Notes under the pieces: generated by a model | Database searches by the model: none | Seen by the model: only the letters and a program-made list of their open reading frames with translations | What the model was told of the DNA's origin: nothing | In this document: positions 25,359 to 37,474 of the stretch, piece by piece | Layout of the letters: each line of letters begins with the position of its first letter | Position numbering within the stretch: position 1 is the first letter of the stretch | Position numbers and translations under genes: made by a program | From: a bacterium | GTDB taxonomy: Bacteria > Planctomycetota > Planctomycetia > Planctomycetales > Planctomycetaceae | Length of the DNA stretch: 64,000 nucleotides | Reading direction: 5' to 3' | NCBI GenBank assembly: GCA_016125225.1 | Contig: WGME01000018.1 | Span: 124,001 to 188,000 of the forward strand

Positions 25359-25410
25359 GTTTTGCGTTTGGTCCCCCAATTTTCGCTTGTGAACTCAGGA
25401 GATGCCTCTC

Positions 25411-26310
25411 ATGCCGAGTTGCCCCTCATGTGCCGCACGGGTTCCCGCGAAAGCCAAGTTCTGCACGAGTTGCGGAGCCAAACTCCACCAAGCCGATGCC
25501 GCGGGAGATGCCGAAGACTTCGATGAACTCGACGTGGCCTCCACTTCTCGTCGTAAAGGAGCCCGAAAGAAGTCCTCTGGCATGCCAACCTGGATCATCG
25601 TCATGCTGGTGATGGGGGGCAGCTGCATCCTGATTTGTCCGTGCCTGATTGCCCTGCTTTTGCCTGCAGTGCAACAGTCCCGCGAAGCCGCCCGGCGGAC
25701 GATGGCTAAAAATAACATGAAGCAAATCGGGCTGGCCATGCATAACTTCCATGATACCTATCAGCACTTCCCCCCGAAGAACATCGAAGGAGAAACGGAA
25801 CCGGGAGAACAGGTGCAGTCGTGGATGACGGACATGTTGCCCTTTCTCGACCAGAGCCTGCTCCATAGCCAGATTCAGTACAGCCTGACCTGGGATGATC
25901 CTGGCAATAAGTTGCCCATGGGGACCGTGATACCCAGCTATATCAATCCGAGTGAACCAACGCCTCCGATTGATGCGAACGGTTATGCCCTGGCCCATTT
26001 CGCGGCCAATTCTCTGGTGGTGTCCGATCAAAAGCATTTGCCGATTCGGGACATCACCGATGGAACCAGCAACACCATCCTGGCAGGCACCGTCGCTGAC
26101 GGCTTCAAACCCTGGGGTGATCCCACGAACCACCGCGACCCCAGTTTGGGTCCGATTGGCGGGGTAAATGGTTTCGGGTCGCGGCATACGGGAATGATCA
26201 TGGTGCTGATGGCCGATGGTTCTGTCCGAACCATTAGTAACGATGTCGACCCTACAATCATGCCGTTGCTGGCAGACCCCGCCGACGGACAAATTGTGCC
26301 GCAGTTCTAA
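25411..26310 (+). CDS. Zinc-ribbon DUF1559 (planctomycete pilin-like) protein
   Basis: A 299-residue protein with unusual layout. Residues 1-30 are a zinc ribbon ([19 protein letters not shown]), then an acidic linker, then a membrane segment ([19 protein letters not shown]) ending [17 protein letters not shown], then the DUF1559 body ([32 protein letters not shown], and DGSVRTI near the end). Ordinary DUF1559 proteins start with a type IV prepilin leader; here the ribbon replaces it, so processing by prepilin peptidase is unlikely. ATG 25411 has AGGAG nine bases upstream; the ATG at 25402 abuts it. Confidence 0.85.
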
Positions 26311-29422: not shown

Positions 29423-29496
29423 GTGTGCCACTGGCTCTGCCAGTGCTGTATGCAACTGAAGTCGACAGATTCACACTGGCAGAGCCAGTGGCACAC
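29423..29496. repeat. REP-like nested palindrome, 23-base perfect inverted repeat
   Basis: Arms 29423-29445 and 29474-29496 are perfectly complementary, with a 28-base spacer. Each arm also contains a palindrome, CACTGGC-TCT-GCCAGTG. It lies between the cysteine desulfurase start and the Lgt-like stop. The structure resembles REP/BIME units dispersed by transposase-like RAYT proteins; I believe similar GCCACTGGC repeats are dispersed in planctomycete genomes, but cannot check that here. Confidence 0.85.
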
Positions 29497-29529: not shown

Positions 29530-30240
29530 TCATCCTAAACCATGCGCAATGGTCTGGACATCACGCCGATCCTGCCACCATAAGATCAGCATGATGGGCA
29601 GCAGTGCCAAAGCGGTCCATTGGTATCCCGTCAGCCCGCCCCACAAGCGGATTTCCGGCCGCAAGAACTCCGTGAGAAAACGGAAAATGCAATAGGCTGC
29701 GATGTAGAGTTTCAGGCGTTGGCGTGGAAACAGGCCCCGCCGCTCCAGCCCCCACAGCACCAAGGCCGCCGTGACATGAAACAGGAACTCGTAAAGCTGC
29801 GTGGGATGACGGCGAACCCCTGCGGCATCCGTCATCGCCCAGGGCAAGTCGGTCGGCTGGCCGTAACAGCAGCCCCCCACAAAGCATCCCAGCCGACCAA
29901 TGGCGATGGAGACCGCGACGGGGATGGCGAAGGAATCGCCCGTTTTGACTCGAATCTCTAACAGCGATTTGGCCACTTCCACTCCAAGATACCCGCCGAC
30001 GAGGCCAAACATGATGGTCTTGCCATCCGCGATCCAGGCCTGCAGACACACCGGCCCTTGCGGATCGGCCAAGGCAAAGGGCAACTTCGCTCCCAGCATG
30101 CCGCCACAAAACGCACCAATCGCAATGCCCCACCGCTGCTGATTCGTAAGTGGTAGCCGAGCCTGCCGTCGCCGCGACAGCCACAACCCAGCCACGAGCG
30201 ACGTCAGCATGATGCAGGGATAGAGAACCGGCAACGTCAC
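29530..30240 (-). CDS. lgt: Prolipoprotein diacylglyceryl transferase-like membrane protein
   Basis: A 236-residue multi-spanning protein of the Lgt family, which moves diacylglycerol from phosphatidylglycerol to the lipobox Cys of prolipoproteins. The signature GRLGCFVGGCCYG is clear, followed by HPTQLYE and LRPEI. The best start is GTG 30240, whose bases overlap the TGA of the upstream small membrane gene; extending to 30417 would run the frame across that gene. With this start the protein is about 55 residues shorter than E. coli Lgt and lacks its first periplasmic segment. It ends the operon of small zinc-ribbon proteins. It may be the general Lgt or a dedicated paralogue. Confidence 0.85.
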   Translation of the reverse strand: MTLPVLYPCIMLTSLVAGLWLSRRRQARLPLTNQQRWGIAIGAFCGGMLGAKLPFALADPQGPVCLQAWIADGKTIMFGLVGGYLGVEVAKSLLEIRVKTGDSFAIPVAVSIAIGRLGCFVGGCCYGQPTDLPWAMTDAAGVRRHPTQLYEFLFHVTAALVLWGLERRGLFPRQRLKLYIAAYCIFRFLTEFLRPEIRLWGGLTGYQWTALALLPIMLILWWQDRRDVQTIAHGLG

Positions 30241-30701
30241 AGTGGGATCACTCCAATTGTGCAAATCGCCACTAACAAAACGAGGAGCGAGAGCAAGCAG
30301 CCGATGGTCAAGAGTTCCGATTTCCAGTAGAGACGCCACAGAAAACCCAAGGACGGTTCCTGCAGCAAACAGGCCTGCCGCCACCAGAATAGCATACGAT
30401 AAGCTGGAAAACCCCATATGGCCAGATTGATGGTGCTGGCAAGGAAGGAGCTAAATGCTGTCTCAGAATCCCACCTCGGAAGGCTCTGAATCGCCCATGC
30501 CGTTGCAGGCAATGTCAGCCCGGAAGCAACCAGTCCCATCAGGACCGCGCGCCCAATATCTACAGCAGCAAGCGGGTCAAACATCCCGGGCGGTATACGC
30601 GGGTGTCCCTGTGGACATTCGAGATCAATCGGTTCCAGCAACGTACCGCAAAAACGACAGATTTCGGTCGCCTCCGCGGCCCGCTGCGGCTCTGTGTCCA
30701 T
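30237..30701 (-). CDS. Small zinc-ribbon membrane protein, array member 8
   Basis: A 154-residue protein. Residues 15-34 hold CRFCGTLLEPIDLECPQGH, a zinc-ribbon-like set in which the last ligand is Cys/His. Three or so membrane segments follow. It carries the array signature in variant form: WGFPAYRMLFWWRQ, then GFLWRLYWKSELLTIG. GGAG lies seven bases before ATG 30701. The stop overlaps the Lgt-like GTG. No known family was recognised; topology suggests the ribbon is cytoplasmic. Confidence 0.75.
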   Translation of the reverse strand: MDTEPQRAAEATEICRFCGTLLEPIDLECPQGHPRIPPGMFDPLAAVDIGRAVLMGLVASGLTLPATAWAIQSLPRWDSETAFSSFLASTINLAIWGFPAYRMLFWWRQACLLQEPSLGFLWRLYWKSELLTIGCLLSLLVLLVAICTIGVIPL

Positions 30702-30751
30702 AGCTACACTCCGTTCAAAGTGTCAAAACATCGCAAACTTTTTTAAAACGA

Positions 30752-31297
30752 TTAACGAAGCGACAACACCCACTGCTGCAATTGGCTCATCAGAACTAAG
30801 AGGAGACTGAACGCGATGAGAACTCCGGGAATCAACATCTGAACAAACTGAATCCACCAGAATTCCCGCCAGTAACTTGAGATAACAGCCCGTTTCTGCA
30901 CGACATTCTTTCGCCACTCCACAAGCAAATGGATTGCTGGTACGCCAAAAAACCAGCCGTTCCAGACACAAAGGAAGACAGCCGCCGACATGTTCCGCCG
31001 CCCATCCATCCATAGTACGGCCGAGCCGATGATATTCACGGGAAGCGACAGCAGCAGGCTGAAGATCCCCATAGAAATTGCCAAGACCTTATCTCGCGCC
31101 CCCGTCGGAAGTGTCGTCGAAACCCGGTGATTCACCGGACGGCCGCACTGCGGGCAAATCAGCGCATCAGCCGCGATTCTGGCCCGGCATTGGCGGCACT
31201 CAGTCTGGCAGTTGACCTCCGGCAGCACGACGGGCGTTTCCGTGATGCCGTCGAAGGTTACTTCATCCGGGTTCCAGCCCGAGAAATCCCCAGTCAT
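30752..31297 (-). CDS. Small zinc-ribbon membrane protein, array member 7
   Basis: A 181-residue protein and the longest of the array. A 30-residue N-terminal extension precedes a zinc ribbon (CRQCRARIAADALICPQCG), followed by three membrane segments. The array signature appears as WFFGVPAIHLLVEWRKN and ISSYWREFWW. ATG 31297 overlaps the stop of the preceding gene (TGATG), so I reject the longer frame from 31336. Function unknown. Confidence 0.75.
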   Translation of the reverse strand: MTGDFSGWNPDEVTFDGITETPVVLPEVNCQTECRQCRARIAADALICPQCGRPVNHRVSTTLPTGARDKVLAISMGIFSLLLSLPVNIIGSAVLWMDGRRNMSAAVFLCVWNGWFFGVPAIHLLVEWRKNVVQKRAVISSYWREFWWIQFVQMLIPGVLIAFSLLLVLMSQLQQWVLSLR

Positions 31298-31674
31298 CAA
31301 AATATCACATCGAGAATAATGAACAATACATAGCACACTGGAAGTGTCAGGAGATAACCAGCCAATTGGGCCTTCCAGTAAATGCGGACGAGATAGCTAT
31401 GATTTTGCTGACCGCGATAAACATTGCGATACCAGTACCAGGCAACAATGGCCAATGGAAACCCGCCGAACCAGCAGATCACACACGATGCGAGCATGGC
31501 GACCCTAGGATCTGGCATGTTTACCATCACCTGTAGAATCACGAACATGGCCAATCCCAGAATGCCGATCGCGGGCAGCGATATGAATGCCGCCAGAAAA
31601 TAGTCCGCTCGGTCAGCAGGCAACATGGGGCTGGACAACATGTATTGCAGATTGTCATCGTTGGGCTTTTCCAT
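31297..31674 (-). CDS. Small membrane protein, array member 6 (no ribbon)
   Basis: A 125-residue protein with about three membrane segments and no cysteine ribbon. The signature is WFGGFPLAIVAWYWYRN then LVRIYWKAQLAGYLL. Its N-terminus (MEKPNDDN...SSPMLPAD) resembles that of array member 5 (MEQPDNDE...DPILPAS), pointing to a tandem duplication. The DNA here looks more AT-rich than the surrounding genes. Confidence 0.72.
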   Translation of the reverse strand: MEKPNDDNLQYMLSSPMLPADRADYFLAAFISLPAIGILGLAMFVILQVMVNMPDPRVAMLASCVICWFGGFPLAIVAWYWYRNVYRGQQNHSYLVRIYWKAQLAGYLLTLPVCYVLFIILDVIF

Positions 31675-31696
31675 GCGACGTATCTCACAAGCATTG

Positions 31697-32083
31697 CTAT
31701 TTGAACATGGCAGTGCAGGTGTCGAACAACAATAAAGTCAATGGAATCGTCAAACCGTATGTAAGCAATTGGGCTTTCCAGTAGGTTCGCGTGAGATATG
31801 CAATCTTTGTTCGACCATGGCCGGCGTTCTGGTGCCAAGTCCACACAACAATAGCTGTTGGCAATCCTAACAGCCATAAGCACCACCCCAGTATCCACAT
31901 GAACGCTAGGAGTGCATTACGCTCACCAAGGTAGACAGCAACGACAGCTCCAAAGAAGAAAGGCGCTGTCACACAAAGTGATATGAGTCCGATGAGAATT
32001 GATATCACGTCATCAATCGGTGAGGCAGGCAAGATGGGGTCTGTCACATGTTGTTGATGCTCGTCATTGTCCGGCTGTTCCAT
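31697..32083 (-). CDS. Small membrane protein, array member 5 (no ribbon)
   Basis: A 128-residue membrane protein without the zinc ribbon. The signature WLLGLPTAIVVWTWHQN, LTRTYWKAQLLTYGLTIPL is nearly identical to that of member 4. ATG 32083 follows GGAG by eight bases; the open frame extends to 32413 but that extension overlaps member 4 and is not protein-like. Confidence 0.75.
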   Translation of the reverse strand: MEQPDNDEHQQHVTDPILPASPIDDVISILIGLISLCVTAPFFFGAVVAVYLGERNALLAFMWILGWCLWLLGLPTAIVVWTWHQNAGHGRTKIAYLTRTYWKAQLLTYGLTIPLTLLLFDTCTAMFK

Positions 32084-32109
32084 TGTCTGACTCCGCCAGT
32101 CTGCTCCAA

Positions 32110-32586
32110 TCACATCGACGCACAAATGCAGAACAACAGCAGCCCCAAGGGAACCGTCAAGCCATAGGTAAGAAACTGGGCTTTCCAATAGGTCCGCCAC
32201 AGATAGGTCGTTTCCATCTGGCCCCGGTACGCGTTGTGATACCAGTGCCATAGAACCGTGGCCGTCGGTAATCCCAGCAGCCACGTCCCCCAAGGCAAGA
32301 AGATAATCAGGCCGATTTCTGCATACGGCACATTGTTCCAGACCTGAATGGCTGACATGACCGTCCAGGGCACCGTCAAGCCAATGGAAATCAGACCGAT
32401 GATCACCGCACAAATGACATCGCCCGGCTGTGCCGGTGGCGGAAATTGGGAGAGCTTGGCCACCACGGTGTCGGGTTTGACCGCTTCACCACAGTGGGGA
32501 CATGTTTCCGTGCTGAACGGCAGTTCCTGTCCACACAACGGACAAGGCTGCGTTGTGATCTGCGGTTTCGGATCGGGTTCGCTCAT
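32110..32586 (-). CDS. Small zinc-ribbon membrane protein, array member 4
   Basis: A 158-residue protein. A zinc ribbon (CPLCGQELPFSTETCPHCG, about residues 15-33) is followed by a Pro-rich linker and three membrane segments. Signature: WLLGLPTATVLWHWYHN and LWRTYWKAQFLTYGLTVPL. ATG 32586 has GGGAGAG seven bases upstream; the in-frame ATG at 32601 abuts its own ribosome site. Member 5 looks like a copy of this gene that lost the ribbon. Confidence 0.78.
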   Translation of the reverse strand: MSEPDPKPQITTQPCPLCGQELPFSTETCPHCGEAVKPDTVVAKLSQFPPPAQPGDVICAVIIGLISIGLTVPWTVMSAIQVWNNVPYAEIGLIIFLPWGTWLLGLPTATVLWHWYHNAYRGQMETTYLWRTYWKAQFLTYGLTVPLGLLLFCICASM

Positions 32587-32607
32587 GGCTGACTCTCCCA
32601 TTCCCTC

Positions 32608-33000
32608 TCACAGAAAATTGATGATCACCAGCGGTAGCAACCCCACCCCCATGGCGATCAGGGCAAACGCAATCGGAACCAGTGCGAAGAGTTGATACCG
32701 GCAATAGATTCGACACAGAATCGCTGCAGGCACGCCATGTTCATAAGCCCCCTGCCACCAGACCAGCCCCACTTTGAACAGCGGCAAGCCCAGAAACCAC
32801 AAGTTCCAGATCGTCATGTAAACCAGTTGGTTTGTAACCAGCGGCGTTAACCCCTGCTGCCACCAGTCATACACCACGCGGGCGGTCAACGGGACCGTAA
32901 ACATGCCCGCTAACATCGCCACACCAACGGTCAGCAACGTGTCTTTCGTCGTGAGTTCGGCCAGATTGGTCATTCTGTTGGGTCCATCACCATCCATCAT
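32608..33000 (-). CDS. Small membrane protein, array member 3 (no ribbon)
   Basis: A 130-residue membrane protein with no zinc ribbon. Signature: WFLGLPLFKVGLVWWQG and LCRIYCRYQLFALVPI, in which the usual Trp is Cys. Start is uncertain between ATG 33000, 32997 and 32973; 33000 lies 10 bases past the upstream stop. Function unknown. Confidence 0.7.
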   Translation of the reverse strand: MMDGDGPNRMTNLAELTTKDTLLTVGVAMLAGMFTVPLTARVVYDWWQQGLTPLVTNQLVYMTIWNLWFLGLPLFKVGLVWWQGAYEHGVPAAILCRIYCRYQLFALVPIAFALIAMGVGLLPLVIINFL

Positions 33001-33010
33001 CACATCCCGG

Positions 33011-33496
33011 TTAACTCTGTGTGCATGCAATAAGCAACACAGTGACCACCGCGAGCATCAGTCCGAGCGGAATGCCTGCCGTTACCGCCTGAATGTGCCA
33101 GAATCGGCGGATCATGTAAGTATGCCGGTCCACCCCGGCGAGGGCACCTAATCGCCATTCGTACAACGCCGCCGCGGTCGGAATCCCCCAGATCCAGCCG
33201 AGCCACAGCGACAGGGAAATCAATTGGGAAGGCAGAACATACCCATTCCACAGGTTGTTGGCGGTCGAGAAGGAATAGGGCAGCGTGTATGCCAAAGAGA
33301 TTATGGCAAATAAGCCAAAGCCGATGTAATCTTTCGCTTTGGCTGGGGCAAATCGCTTTTCATAATTCGGCACGGGAGACGAGACCCCGCGGTCTGACAC
33401 CAACTCACCACAATTCGGGCAATGGGTCCACACCGAAATGAGTGGCATTCCGCATAACGGACAGGGCGGCTCAACGGGTGGCGGGATCGGTTCCAT
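33011..33496 (-). CDS. Small zinc-ribbon membrane protein, array member 2
   Basis: A 161-residue protein with a zinc ribbon at residues 12-31 (CPLCGMPLISVWTHCPNCG) and three membrane segments. Signature: WIWGIPTAAALYEWRLG and MIRRFWHIQAVTAGIPL. ATG 33496 overlaps the previous stop (TGATG), so the large upstream extension of the frame to 33859 is rejected as antisense-like overlap with array member 1. Confidence 0.76.
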   Translation of the reverse strand: MEPIPPPVEPPCPLCGMPLISVWTHCPNCGELVSDRGVSSPVPNYEKRFAPAKAKDYIGFGLFAIISLAYTLPYSFSTANNLWNGYVLPSQLISLSLWLGWIWGIPTAAALYEWRLGALAGVDRHTYMIRRFWHIQAVTAGIPLGLMLAVVTVLLIACTQS

Positions 33497-33936
33497 CAGA
33501 ATTGTCCTGTGGCCATGGCTCCGAAGCAGACGACGAACATCAGCACGAGGAGGGCCAGACCAATCAGAAACGGAACCACCACGAACAGAATCACATTGGC
33601 CAGAAACGCCTTGAACGAGGTCACGCCGAGTTGTTTGTAGGTAAGTGGACGCCCCGTAGCTCGGAAGAAGACCGCTTTGCCGAACGTGTAACACAACGGC
33701 AGACCGAAGATGACCGCGAAGACCGTGGCGGTTTCCTGCGACGCCTTGGCAAGGAGTGCCGTGGCCGCCACAAAGGCCACCGCGACCGCCAGCCAACTCG
33801 CCACGCGGTAGGAAAACGGCCCATCGGCTTTCAACCATTGCCCACATTTGGGACAACACGCCCAGTCGGCCAGCACATCGGCATCACACTTCGGGCATTG
33901 AAAGTTCTGCAAAGGCGTGGGCGAGTTTTCGGTCAT
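33496..33936 (-). CDS. Small zinc-ribbon membrane protein, array member 1 (divergent)
   Basis: A 146-residue protein with a zinc ribbon (CPKCDADVLADWACCPKCG, residues 14-32) and three or four membrane segments. It lacks the Trp-rich signature of the others, showing only IFGLPLCYTFGKAVFF and RPLTYKQ, so it is a distant member or a separate family. It starts 31 bases after the radical SAM stop and overlaps the next start by one base. Confidence 0.75.
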   Translation of the reverse strand: MTENSPTPLQNFQCPKCDADVLADWACCPKCGQWLKADGPFSYRVASWLAVAVAFVAATALLAKASQETATVFAVIFGLPLCYTFGKAVFFRATGRPLTYKQLGVTSFKAFLANVILFVVVPFLIGLALLVLMFVVCFGAMATGQF

Positions 33937-33967
33937 GATAACTCTCTATTGAGACGCCCAGGGATTG

Positions 33968-35497
33968 CTATCCCTGGGCTTCGGCCACCATGCGGGTCAG
34001 TTCCGGTAACGGCACAATGCCCGTGCGGTACAGCGTGTTGTAGGCACAAAACGGAATCACATGCCCGCTCGGCAGAACATGATGCACGCAGCACTTCATC
34101 ACTCGCCGGACATCGAAATTGTAGGCATCGAGAAACGACGTGATGGTGATGCGGAACACATCTTCCGGATCGAGGTTCTCCATCAGGGCCCGCGCAAAGA
34201 ATTCATTGGCTGCGGCACCAAAATCAGAGGAAGAATCGGAAACTGCTGAGGCTGATGTCGTGGGCAACACGTTCAACAAAGACGACAGGGCATTCCCTGC
34301 GTCTTTCATTTTTCCGACGTCATCCTTTTCTGCTCCCCCGCAATCGCCTCCGGCACAACAGCCCAACCGACCGAGGTACCGTTCAATGAGTTGCCGGGCC
34401 CGCGGTCGCGTGAAGGTGATGCCATTGGCCAGCAGGTCCATGTTGTCGTGCACATTGATGAACCGCAGCAACGGGACCACGGCCCCACCACCACGGTAGG
34501 CATACGTCAGTTGATGACAGTTGGGATGGGCACACGGCAACGGCAGGAAGTCGTCCTTCTGAAAGATACCATCGGTCTGCTCGACCACGCCGCGAATGAC
34601 ATCGGGGAATGTAATCCGCTGTTCGAGTTCTTCGGGAAGATAATGCCGCCCGGAGTAGGTCGCCGGTTGAAAGCTGACACCGGTGATCCATTTCCGCTCG
34701 AGTGCAAACTTGACGATGTCGCCGATCTCATCGCCATTCACCCCCGCCTGCAACGTGGTGACCAGAATGGTACGGATGCCGGCCTTGCCCAGCTTTTCGA
34801 CGGCATTCAATTTTAACTTCGCCAGCGGCTCGCCCCGCAGTGCCTGATAAGTGCTGTCGCGCAGGCCATCGAATTGCAGGTAAACTTCAATCCGCTTGCG
34901 ATGGGCAGCGAGTTTATCGATGAACCCCGGATCGTGCGCGATGCGGACGCCGTTGGTGTTCAGCATTACGATGTCGATTGGTTGTGACACCGCATAATCG
35001 AGCACCCGCTCGAACTCAGGGTGAATGGTCGGTTCACCGCCCGAAAGTTGCAGGACCTCAGGGCGGCCTTCGACTTCGATGAGTCGTTGAATCGCCCGGG
35101 TGATCTCTTCAAACGACTGATGTTTGCCGCCGGGACCACTGGACGAATAACACATCGGACACTTCAAGTTGCAAGATTCGGTCAACTCGACCAGCCCGAT
35201 GCAGGTGTGCTGTTCGTGCTCGGTGCACAGACCACAATCGAGCGGGCAGCCCTTATCGGGATCGACGCCAACTTGCCGCGGAACCTTACCCGGCACGCTG
35301 AATTCCAGCCGGTCATACTCGGCCGCATCGCTGCAGACAAAATCTTCCCGCACGCCATGCGTGGGACAGGTTTTCCGAAAGTAGACGCGTTGATCACGCA
35401 CGAGAATCTTCGCCGGGACCACGGTCATGCAGTCGGGACAGAGGGACTGCGTGATCCCTAGAAACGAATAATCTCGCAAAGGCAAAGGGGCACTCAT
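33968..35497 (-). CDS. Radical SAM enzyme related to the MJ0619/tetraether synthase group
   Basis: A 509-residue radical SAM protein. The cluster-binding CxxxCxxC is C109, C113, C116 (ESCNLKCPMCY), with SGGEPTIHPEF as the SAM loop. Extra conserved cysteines match the MJ0619-like group: CPDC at 20-23, TCPTHG at 43-48, CPLDCGLCTEH at 84-94, CAHPNCHQLTYAY near 315-330 and KCCVHHVLPSG then PFCAYN near 464-485. In archaeal Tes these bind additional Fe-S clusters and a rubredoxin-like iron and the enzyme couples lipid tails. A Cys/Gly insertion (CCAGGDCGG near 376) is distinctive here. Lipid substrate is inferred only from family. ATGA overlap with the TPR gene. Confidence 0.85.
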   Translation of the reverse strand: MSAPLPLRDYSFLGITQSLCPDCMTVVPAKILVRDQRVYFRKTCPTHGVREDFVCSDAAEYDRLEFSVPGKVPRQVGVDPDKGCPLDCGLCTEHEQHTCIGLVELTESCNLKCPMCYSSSGPGGKHQSFEEITRAIQRLIEVEGRPEVLQLSGGEPTIHPEFERVLDYAVSQPIDIVMLNTNGVRIAHDPGFIDKLAAHRKRIEVYLQFDGLRDSTYQALRGEPLAKLKLNAVEKLGKAGIRTILVTTLQAGVNGDEIGDIVKFALERKWITGVSFQPATYSGRHYLPEELEQRITFPDVIRGVVEQTDGIFQKDDFLPLPCAHPNCHQLTYAYRGGGAVVPLLRFINVHDNMDLLANGITFTRPRARQLIERYLGRLGCCAGGDCGGAEKDDVGKMKDAGNALSSLLNVLPTTSASAVSDSSSDFGAAANEFFARALMENLDPEDVFRITITSFLDAYNFDVRRVMKCCVHHVLPSGHVIPFCAYNTLYRTGIVPLPELTRMVAEAQG

Positions 35498-36351
35498 GGT
35501 TTTCCGTTCAACATCCAGCGAATACGGTCAATTTCGTCCTGCCGAATCTGGCGTTCCTGCCGTGAAATCCATTTCATACGGGCCAGCGTTTCCACGGCCT
35601 GATCGTGGAGCTTGCGGGCATCTTCCTTGCGATTCAATTCGACCAGCAGCTCGGCATAGTTGCACAAAAAAACGGGGTCATCACTGAGCGCGGGACCGGC
35701 CTGACGGAAAGAGGCTTCCGCTTCGTCCAAACGCCCGAGTCGCAGCAGATACAAACCCTGATTGCTGTAAAGATGCGTCTGTTGGGACGATAACGCGAGC
35801 TGCTCGCTGACCAGTTCGAAGGCGCGTGACCAATCCTTTTTCATGGCATAGAGCACCGACAATTCATTGAGTGCCCCTGAATTCGGGCCCTGCTTCTGCA
35901 GACGCTCTTCGCACAGCCGAATCGCGTGATCAATATCTCCCGCATTCGCAAGATCCAGGATTTCACGGGTCCGGTTCATACCTCTCCGAACATAAAACAG
36001 GCATCCGACAAAGAGGAGGAACATCATTCCCGCGATGAAAAAAGGGGACGACATCACCTGCGGATCGAGACCAAACTGTTCGACTAAGTCGTGTCCCCAG
36101 AATTGAATCGCGATGGCCCCGGCGAACACGAGCACAAGGACCACCCAGAAGAGGGGCGTCAGCTTTTGTGGTTCCGCTTGAGGGGGCGCTGGCGACTGCG
36201 GAGCCACCAGACCTTCACCACGTCCCTCGGCAAAGGTCCGATGTTCAGCTGCATACCGCTTTGTCCAGCGCCAAGCCCACAGCCATAGCACCAGCATGAC
36301 ACTGGATGTGGCCAGAGCAAACCACTGCAAGGGATCGATGGCAAACAGCAT
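35494..36351 (-). CDS. Membrane protein with cytoplasmic TPR repeats
   Basis: A 285-residue protein. Membrane segments lie at about residues 8-27, 68-88 and 104-122, separated by a Pro-rich charged loop. The C-terminal half (about 128-260) has three or four TPR-like helix pairs (ALNELSVLYAMKKDWSRA, LYSNQGLYLLRLGRLDEA, VFLCNYAELLVELNRKEDA). It is likely a scaffold. Its stop overlaps the radical SAM start (ATGA), so the pair is translationally coupled and may work together. Confidence 0.78.
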   Translation of the reverse strand: MLFAIDPLQWFALATSSVMLVLWLWAWRWTKRYAAEHRTFAEGRGEGLVAPQSPAPPQAEPQKLTPLFWVVLVLVFAGAIAIQFWGHDLVEQFGLDPQVMSSPFFIAGMMFLLFVGCLFYVRRGMNRTREILDLANAGDIDHAIRLCEERLQKQGPNSGALNELSVLYAMKKDWSRAFELVSEQLALSSQQTHLYSNQGLYLLRLGRLDEAEASFRQAGPALSDDPVFLCNYAELLVELNRKEDARKLHDQAVETLARMKWISRQERQIRQDEIDRIRWMLNGKP

Positions 36352-36372: not shown

Positions 36373-37248
36373 TCAAACGTCACACCAGGTGATCGCTTCC
36401 TTTAAACCGGCAACGCAGTCGCGGGTCGGAATGAACTCGTGCCCCACGTAACCCGTGTAACCAACATCCAACAACGCCTGCATGATCGGTGGGTAATGGA
36501 TTTCCTGGGTGTTGTCGAGTTCCCCTCGTCCCGGATTGCCCGCCGTATGGATGTGGCCGATGTAATCTTTATGCTGATGAATGCGGCGGATGACATCGCC
36601 ATCCATGATCTGCACATGATAGATGTCGAACAGCAGCTTCACGTTGGGTGAACCAACCGCCTTGAGAATATCGATGCAGTAATCCGTATGGTCGCCCTGA
36701 TAACCGGGGTGGCCTTTCATGGGGTGATCGCTGGCCCGAGTATTGAGCATCTCCAGGCAAAGGGTGACCTTTTTCTCTTCCGCAAGCGGAGCCAGCTTCT
36801 TGAGGGCCGTGACGCAGTTCTTCGCACCAATATCGTCTGGGATATCTTCCCGCATGCCGTTGAAGGTGATGACACTGGGACAGCCAAACGCGGCGGCCTG
36901 TTCGATGCGTTCGCGGAGTTTCGCATCACATTCCGGCCAGTATTTGGGATTGTTCAAGCCTTTCACGAAGCCATGACTACCGGCGATCGCACACTTCAGG
37001 TCGTACTTCTTCAAAGTCGGCCAGAGTTCCGGATCGCAAAGTTCGAGACTCTTGCAGCCGAGTTCCTTGGCCGTCTTGCAGTAGTCGTCGAAGCTGGCGA
37101 AGTGATCCTTATAACACCAGTACACCAGTGAATGGTTGATGTTCCCTTTAAGCGGTGCCGGAGCCGCAGAAACCGAGCTGGCACAGAGTGATCCGACAGT
37201 GGCGACAGTTGCAGAGACCAGCAGATCACGGCGGTCGAGACGGGTCAT
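36373..37248 (-). CDS. Tat-exported hydroxypyruvate isomerase-like TIM barrel
   Basis: A 291-residue protein of the hydroxypyruvate isomerase/sugar isomerase family. A twin-arginine signal (RLDRRDLLVSATVATVGSL) shows export. The family features are TLCLEMLN (Glu), LLFDIYHVQ (Asp/His), IGHIHTAGNPGRGELD and GYVGHEFIP (Glu) as metal and substrate residues. ATG 37248 has AAGGA nine bases upstream. It is 21 bases upstream of the TPR gene, so it could be the first gene of the long minus-strand operon, though its function seems unrelated. Confidence 0.85.
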   Translation of the reverse strand: MTRLDRRDLLVSATVATVGSLCASSVSAAPAPLKGNINHSLVYWCYKDHFASFDDYCKTAKELGCKSLELCDPELWPTLKKYDLKCAIAGSHGFVKGLNNPKYWPECDAKLRERIEQAAAFGCPSVITFNGMREDIPDDIGAKNCVTALKKLAPLAEEKKVTLCLEMLNTRASDHPMKGHPGYQGDHTDYCIDILKAVGSPNVKLLFDIYHVQIMDGDVIRRIHQHKDYIGHIHTAGNPGRGELDNTQEIHYPPIMQALLDVGYTGYVGHEFIPTRDCVAGLKEAITWCDV

Positions 37249-37474
37249 GGTCGAGGTTCCTTGAGATAGTAAGTCCTTGCCTGACACGATAGTTCGTCGA
37301 CTTCCCTCATTCAATGGCGACGTGAAGTGCGGCATATCACGCAGATTGTTCAGCAGTTGGCAAATTTCATGAGAAACTCTCCGGTTCAGGCCACTTCGAT
37401 TGCGAACGCAGACTACGTTTCGCATGCTGGCCGATGCCTGTCACCCTTTCCTTTCCCATCTGGAGCCGAGCACC

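Follow-up and report, generated by a model that had tools for sequence, protein, structure and literature searches.

Lgt uses phosphatidylglycerol as the donor of a diacylglyceryl group, which it attaches to a cysteine thiol on the outer face of the membrane, and the classical lipoprotein signal combines a positively charged stretch, a hydrophobic stretch and a cysteine at that face. Tes (MJ0619), a radical S-adenosylmethionine (SAM) enzyme, acts on lipid chains, and in the cited passages of two environmental surveys its bacterial homologues are counted as hints of membrane-spanning lipid producers (PMC8941075, PMC11868695). Here we describe a locus that encodes relatives of both enzymes together with eight small membrane proteins, located within a stretch of 64,000 nucleotides from a bacterium of the Planctomycetaceae (hereafter the window; GenBank assembly GCA_016125225.1, contig WGME01000018.1, positions 124,001 to 188,000 of the forward strand). 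As a preliminary description of this DNA had reported, 11 minus-strand genes follow one another from window position 36351 to 29530, separated by gaps of 13-50 bases or overlapping by 1-4 bases; in 5' to 3' order they encode a TPR membrane protein, the radical SAM enzyme (rSAM), the small membrane proteins A1 to A8 and an Lgt-like protein (Table 1). We propose that this locus exemplifies a widespread module for protein modification, in which the Lgt paralogue would lipidate a cysteine near the C-terminus of the small proteins (the tail cysteine) and the rSAM would alter the lipid; we give this reading close to an even chance, if slightly less. A search of the open-licence full-text literature returned no description of a module combining an rSAM, an Lgt paralogue and small proteins, and the paper that names TrsM concerns, in that passage, cobalamin methylation and not the rSAM-Lgt module. 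We therefore regard the module as categorically new as a system, although built from known enzyme superfamilies, with one caveat, the name of the family NF058595, which is discussed below.

The conserved core of the locus is the Tes/TrsS-like rSAM and a second, divergent Lgt (the partner Lgt), and not the eleven-gene operon that had been taken as the unit; the eight small proteins are a genus-restricted expansion. Conservation was followed in 112 loci, a non-random set comprising 34 planctomycete loci picked from the matches (all 14 other genomes above 300 bits, plus 20 genomes out of the 56 with a match) and the 80 best relatives out of at least 570, from which three duplicates (L040, L041, L074) were removed and to which the window was added. 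In 97 of the 112 loci the rSAM has the partner Lgt on its own strand at a distance of no more than 5 kb, and in 82 at no more than 150 bases; both gene orders are represented. Eight of the 15 loci without a linked Lgt have a contig end at most 1.5 kb from the rSAM. Co-occurrence was equally consistent among 59 planctomycete genomes: each of the 15 that carry the rSAM at more than 300 bits also has a second Lgt with a low score (78-118 bits), joined in G033 by a third copy that is partial, and none of the 44 genomes lacking the rSAM has such an Lgt (Fisher p = 3e-14). Within these 44, second Lgt rows represent pieces of one gene (G038, G043, G045, G047, G053, G056) or higher-scoring copies of at least 189 bits (G046, G050), and G016 has no Lgt at all. 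In two other genomes of the window's genus the partner Lgt lies distant from the rSAM; the co-occurrence thus does not depend on linkage alone, and a reading of linkage as essential is not supported. The earlier suggestion that the rSAM and the Lgt belong together is supported by the linkage and co-occurrence counts.

The same two-copy pattern is found in all 20 named genomes reached through the loci (14 Bacteroidota, one cyanobacterium, one Ktedonobacterales and four planctomycetes), each of which has a higher-scoring Lgt in addition to the lower-scoring one at the pair. Besides planctomycetes, the pair occurs in Bacteroidota, Cyanobacteria, Ktedonobacterales and other groups, with a patchy distribution: the rSAM is detected at E <= 1e-40, a threshold that includes remote relatives, in 56 of 392 genomes of the planctomycete phylum and, within the Flavobacterium family, in 13 of the 80 genomes searched. 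Cultured carriers include Zobellia uliginosa and Lacipirellula limnantheis. In both Ktedonobacterales loci (L079, L080) the next gene after the rSAM encodes a membrane protein of 306-420 residues, which appears permease-like from its sequence.

The rSAM is homologous to Tes over almost its whole length. When a profile of 10 rSAM relatives was aligned to the Tes structure 7tol, the alignment covered 9-477 and scored 355 bits; the window rSAM matches the same structure with E 6e-79, and the N-terminal CxxC, the CGLC and CNLxCPxC cysteines and the C-terminal CC/CxH...PFCxYN block are common to both. Eight cysteines (C84, C88, C91, C99, C109, C113, C116 and C470, window rSAM numbering) are invariant in the 10 aligned sequences and are presumably ligands of the radical SAM core and of auxiliary clusters. 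In contrast to Tes, the rSAM is bacterial and has an Lgt paralogue and small membrane proteins as its partners. The earlier label "MJ0619/Tes-like" needs a correction: the best-scoring NCBIfam family is TrsS (NF045646, 349.2 bits, cut-off 490) and Tes ranks second (NF045702, 309.7 bits, cut-off 450), so that the rSAM falls below both cut-offs. Of 60 NCBIfam matches, the 25 best include no family over its cut-off, peptide maturases included, and the sactipeptide enzyme SkfB is found among the structural matches. The enzyme has no predicted membrane helix. For TrsS we found one table row, in the excerpt of PMC13188914, and no description of its function. A further likeness to TrsS comes from one rSAM relative with an in-frame TGA (L024:10396-10398), aligned to the last cysteine of the CCAGGDC block of the window protein; our guess is a candidate selenocysteine, which would fit the name "(seleno)protein TrsS", and the sequence after this codon folds no better into a selenocysteine insertion sequence (SECIS) hairpin than shuffled sequences do (z 0.48).

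The partner Lgt of the window is a member of PF01790 (110.6 bits, Pfam cut-off 24.9), in keeping with its earlier description as Lgt-like, but lies far below the cut-off of the prolipoprotein Lgt family TIGR00544 (40.4 bits against 118.9); a canonical-type, higher-scoring Lgt is encoded elsewhere in the same genome (189.5 bits). Its AlphaFold2 model has a mean predicted local distance difference test score (pLDDT) of 93, and the sole Foldseek match at E <= 0.001 is E. coli Lgt (5azb; E 3e-6, template modelling score 0.65 by query length). To compare residues, 101 partner sequences were aligned with nine canonical ones (eight planctomycete and E. coli), counting ungapped rows and using E. coli numbering. 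The equivalent of R143 is kept in 97/97 partner Lgts and those of Y235 and R239 in 99/99, while the E243 position is E or D in 98/99; R143 and R239 are core catalytic arginines of Lgt. The partner group shares its family, fold and R143, Y235 and R239 with E. coli Lgt and differs from it in three respects: in each of the two genome sets tested (15 and 20 genomes) it is an additional copy present alongside an Lgt of higher score, it is marked by K100 (93/99), E115 (96/99), K118 (99/99) and G128 (97/97), and its candidate substrates carry their cysteine at the C-terminus. R195 and E202 are invariant or nearly so among the partners, yet they are also present in E. coli and are thus not partner-specific. 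H103 and N146 of E. coli Lgt are mostly missing from the partners (N146 is kept in two), a loss that was considered as a sign of altered chemistry and rejected, as the eight aligned canonical planctomycete Lgts also lack both. In two Flavobacterium loci (L108, L110) the partner Lgt is split into at least two open reading frames (ORFs) although a small tail-cysteine gene is present; in the genome of L108 (G446) both Lgt copies, the canonical one included, are in pieces, possibly owing to sequencing or assembly frameshifts.

The third component consists of small membrane proteins whose last predicted helix ends in a cysteine on the predicted outer side. In the window this layout is found in five of the eight array members (A1, A2, A4, A5 and A8), with the candidate cysteine 3-9 residues from the C-terminus. 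Across 34 non-redundant tail-cysteine proteins, the last helix is preceded by a mean of 3.3 K/R against 1.0 D/E in 15 residues, a count anchored on the last charged residue and hence biased towards charges; then follow an uncharged run with a median length of 20.5 residues, the cysteine and about 10 further residues. Under the positive-inside rule, by which a positively charged flank stays in the cytoplasm, this charge distribution indicates that the last helix runs outwards and places the cysteine at the outer face. The tail may accordingly be described as lipobox-like, with the build of a type II signal peptide but a C-terminal position. Like lipoproteins with an N-terminal lipobox, the small proteins combine a positive stretch, a hydrophobic stretch and an outer-face cysteine; they differ in that the cysteine belongs to the last helix near the C-terminus, that the preceding residues are looser, and that no room is left for maturation by signal peptidase II to an N-terminal cysteine. 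None of the array members with a tail cysteine has a classical N-terminal signal peptide with lipobox.

The closest named counterpart of such a tail is NCBIfam NF058595, the "lipo-invert putative C-terminal anchoring domain", known here by name alone, which suggests that a curator had an inverted lipoprotein anchor in mind. It gives weak matches to 8 of 21 Bacteroidota small proteins (best E 0.021), with 12 bits for one of them against a cut-off of 37, and is absent from the 25 families listed for 15 array-type proteins. Its use as a diagnostic was rejected, as weak matches below the cut-off appear in all 40 genomes searched.

Tail cysteines are concentrated beside the pair. Of 110 small membrane genes that form a same-strand run with the pair, 65 carry one, compared with 26 of 177 located elsewhere in these loci (p = 6e-15), counts that give the size of the effect and are not independent tests. 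The difference holds by homology family (12/30 vs 20/128, p = 0.005), after collapsing at 40% identity (21/52 vs 24/146, p = 9e-4) and with Bacteroidota left out (35/73 vs 17/111, p = 2e-6), and several of the "far" tail-cysteine genes actually adjoin the pair, just past the 150-base gap limit. Because gene calling in GC-rich loci missed known genes (in the window and in L009), a six-frame ORF test was added, covering 65 of 72 planctomycete loci, as seven without a gene-called rSAM were skipped. Near the pair, 63 of 1102 same-strand ORFs had a tail cysteine; the control figures were 11 of 1889 for opposite-strand ORFs and 37 of 5542 for distant ones, giving an enrichment of about nine-fold (eight- to ten-fold) over these two control sets (p = 3e-28 with controls pooled and shared ancestry uncorrected). 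In Bacteroidota, a tail-cysteine gene is present in 29 of 32 loci, and in the other three the contig ends 1-376 bases after the rSAM. Such a gene is also present in both Ktedonobacterales loci and in single loci of Cyanobacteria, Spirochaetia, Caenarcaniphilales, Obscuribacterales and Parabeggiatoa; the one Rhizobiales locus has none.

Small proteins beside the enzymes and away from them were also compared for the state of the cysteine. Within a family of Bacteroidota small proteins of 65 residues, the cysteine is present in 20 of 21 aligned members. Among the 80 genomes of the Flavobacterium family, this small family adjoins the rSAM in all 13 carriers, in 1-3 detected copies, whereas the 67 genomes lacking the rSAM yield six matches at E 0.01, one at E 2e-13 and five of at most 31 bits. 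The single clear orphan (E 2e-13) contains no cysteine at all, and the strongest of the five weak matches adjoins a 90-residue remnant of an rSAM. This remnant, at L146:5695-6048, has a small-gene fragment right behind it, and the locus is a module in decay. In the planctomycete genome G001, of the window's genus, relatives of the array have a tail cysteine in 3/3 cases beside the rSAM and in 0/3 unlinked cases. The earlier proposal that the small proteins are substrates thus gains from the occurrence of the tail cysteine in several families across phyla, its loss in the orphan and the three unlinked paralogues with no cysteine at the end of the last helix.

The array of the window is a local elaboration of this component. 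A2 to A8 are paralogues (A4-A5 E 7e-32, A4-A2 3e-24, A4-A7 5e-15), of which A3 is the most remote, with links from E 1e-7 to 1e-3; A1 resembles them mainly through its zinc ribbon and is visibly akin to the sole small gene between rSAM and Lgt in another genus (L006/L041). The AlphaFold2 model of A4 (pLDDT 87) consists of the ribbon region and helices 54-83, 89-120 and 126-157, and Foldseek found no solved relative of this model at E <= 0.001, the top rows being mostly zinc-finger-sized fragments. For the genome search we built a profile from helices alone, those of A2-A8 and related proteins; an iterated array profile drifts to zinc ribbons, and its distant matches were not counted as array relatives. 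In the 59 genomes, matches to the helix profile are restricted to three genomes of the window's genus, all of which have both enzymes, indicating a recent expansion: seven in the window genome, all in the array, six in G001 (three beside the rSAM and three elsewhere) and one in G002, beside the rSAM. A distribution in which the array proteins occur mostly without the enzymes, which the preliminary description had named as refuting its reading, was not observed in these 59 genomes.

That description had also spoken of an eight-gene zinc-ribbon array; the eight small membrane genes are confirmed, but the ribbon wording is too broad, as only four or five of the eight members have one. A CxxC...CxxC ribbon is found in A1, A2, A4 and A7, A8 has C-x2-C...C followed by GH, and A3, A5 and A6 have none. 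The ribbon was accordingly rejected as the key or defining feature, being missing from three of the eight array members and from the aligned Bacteroidota small proteins. Tandem small genes are found elsewhere as well, with four in L147, five in L017 and four in L033; in L017 (6481-8298, another planctomycete) the five are small tail-cysteine ORFs that fill the interval between partner Lgt and rSAM.

We infer from these observations a module with three parts: a Tes-related rSAM in the cytoplasm, a membrane transferase that has the Lgt fold but is not the housekeeping Lgt, and a set of small membrane proteins, one to eight in number, that are putative substrates. Each substrate would end in a helix preceded by a positive cytoplasmic loop and comprising about 20 uncharged residues, with the cysteine at the outer face and a short tail behind it. 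This cysteine would receive a lipid that the Lgt paralogue takes from a phospholipid, a step for which we see roughly an even chance. The rSAM lacks a predicted membrane helix and is thus expected in the cytoplasm, away from the tail cysteine, so the simplest division of labour has it work on the lipid: like Tes, it may modify the lipid chain or the donor ahead of transfer, or else the chain that is already attached, which is a more tentative step than the transfer. If this is correct, bacteria would possess a lipidation route at the C-terminal end of membrane proteins that combines an Lgt paralogue with a radical SAM enzyme. It would also offer a second reading for many bacterial "Tes homologues", since those paired with an Lgt paralogue may modify proteins. 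A stronger version is rather unlikely in our judgement: in it, the Lgt paralogue would diacylglycerylate the tail cysteine and the Tes-like rSAM would join the chain ends in the middle of the membrane to a lipid of the inner leaflet, stapling the protein to a covalent, membrane-spanning anchor.

Several observations weigh against the lipidation module. A3, A6 and A7, three of the eight array members, have no tail cysteine, and one unlinked G001 paralogue has a cysteine near the start of its last helix. By the six-frame criterion, 30 of the 65 planctomycete loci have no tail-cysteine ORF, and some of the 35 that do probably have it by chance; in several loci a cysteine closes helix 3 and a fourth helix follows, others have nothing evident, and in the two genomes with an unlinked Lgt paralogue no tail-cysteine gene adjoins the Lgt. 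The idea was formed on the very loci that supplied the enrichment counts, the Flavobacterium-family genomes being the only new ones for it. The 65 tail-cysteine proteins group into 13 families (single linkage, E < 1e-3), two of which hold 52; the loci share ancestry, and the family-level statistics are much weaker than the raw ones. The topology comes from simple hydropathy, standing in for a true topology prediction, the charge counts carry the anchoring bias mentioned above, and the residue preceding the cysteine is not limited to G/A/S, unlike in the classical lipobox. Both enzymes, moreover, fall below the curated cut-offs of the characterised families.

Other functions of the same genes have to be weighed against this. 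The pair might produce a modified or membrane-spanning free lipid, with the small proteins serving as lipid-holding chaperones or subunits whose cysteine contacts an enzyme or a metal. The alignment of the rSAM to Tes (9-477, 355 bits) speaks for such a role, as do the cited passages of Zeng et al. (PMC8941075) and of a study from the Black Sea (PMC11868695), which suggest that membrane-spanning lipids are produced by Tes homologues of bacteria. It is nevertheless doubtful, because it explains neither the choice of an Lgt over another lipid enzyme nor the lipobox-like cysteine across several families, the tandem copies and the loss of the cysteine in an enzyme-less genome, and because the rSAM scores below the Tes cut-off.

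The rSAM could instead modify the small proteins itself, through a thioether or C-C cross-link, in the manner of ribosomally synthesised and post-translationally modified peptides (RiPPs), the Lgt-fold protein helping with membrane placement. Small genes in variable numbers beside a radical SAM gene are the usual RiPP layout, and SkfB appears among the structural matches. We consider this unlikely, since the tail cysteine is predicted outside and the rSAM inside, the NCBIfam matches mentioned above include no peptide maturase family over its cut-off, and the Lgt arginines, conserved without exception in ungapped rows, would be needless in a scaffold. Least probable, and very unlikely in our view, is that the small proteins have a regulatory or structural role in the membrane, evolve fast and accompany the pair by coincidence, and that cysteines are simply common in such helices. 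The three array members without a tail cysteine and the 26 of 177 control genes with one would fit this, but the eight- to ten-fold ORF enrichment, the position and topology of the cysteine, and its near-invariance in Bacteroidota and loss in the orphan argue against it.

Table 1. Genes of the window locus, with positions given in window coordinates.
Feature	Position	Strand	Remarks
TPR membrane protein	35494..36351	-	TPR Pfam matches; 4-base overlap with the rSAM gene; outside the conserved module
rSAM, 509 aa, Tes/TrsS-like, N-terminal HMPTM zinc ribbon	33968..35497	-	PF04055 E 1e-21, PF23545 E 9e-18
A1: zinc ribbon and 3 predicted helices, tail Cys137 (codon 33526-33528)	33496..33936	-	
A2: zinc ribbon membrane protein, tail Cys158 (codon 33023-33025)	33011..33496	-	
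A3: array paralogue, no ribbon, no tail Cys	32608..32997	-	
A4: zinc ribbon and 3 helices, tail Cys153 and Cys155 (codons 32128-32130, 32122-32124)	32110..32586	-	
A5: no ribbon, tail Cys123 (codon 31715-31717), Asp two residues earlier	31697..32083	-	array paralogue
A6: array paralogue, no ribbon; Cys114 mid-helix, not at helix end	31297..31674	-	
A7: array paralogue with zinc ribbon, no tail Cys	30752..31297	-	
A8: array paralogue, C3H-like ribbon, tail Cys147 (codon 30261-30263)	30237..30701	-	
Lgt paralogue (partner Lgt), GTG start 30240	29530..30240	-	PF01790 110.6 bits; AlphaFold2 model; Foldseek

The joins between the genes are short throughout. The rSAM and A1 are separated by 31 bases, A1 and A2 overlap by 1, and gaps of 13, 21 (6 if an earlier ATG is used), 26 and 22 bases follow between A2-A3, A3-A4, A4-A5 and A5-A6; A6 and A7 overlap by 1 base, A7 and A8 lie 50 bases apart, and A8 overlaps the Lgt gene by 4 bases with the GTG start. 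An alternative Lgt start at ATG 30417 would give a 181-base overlap with A8, and the Lgt family profile starts near the GTG. The TPR gene, which the preliminary description had included in the unit, was rejected as a member of the system, as none of its relatives adjoins the rSAM-Lgt pair in the other loci scanned. Promoter and terminator sites in the window operon, sought with simple scans, were no more frequent than in shuffled sequence. A further minus-strand gene (36373-37425), whose product looks like a sugar-isomerase-type TIM barrel from its sequence, stops 21 bases short of the TPR gene, and transcription may thus begin at a more upstream point.

Outside the array, the plus strand encodes a zinc-ribbon protein with a pilin-like body (25402-26310), which is also matched by the drifted array profile and whose body is presumably of the DUF1559 type. 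Between the Lgt gene and the next gene lies a perfect 21-base inverted repeat, CACTGGCAGAGCCAGTGGCAC, present on both strands 28 bases apart (29425-29494), where none is expected by chance.

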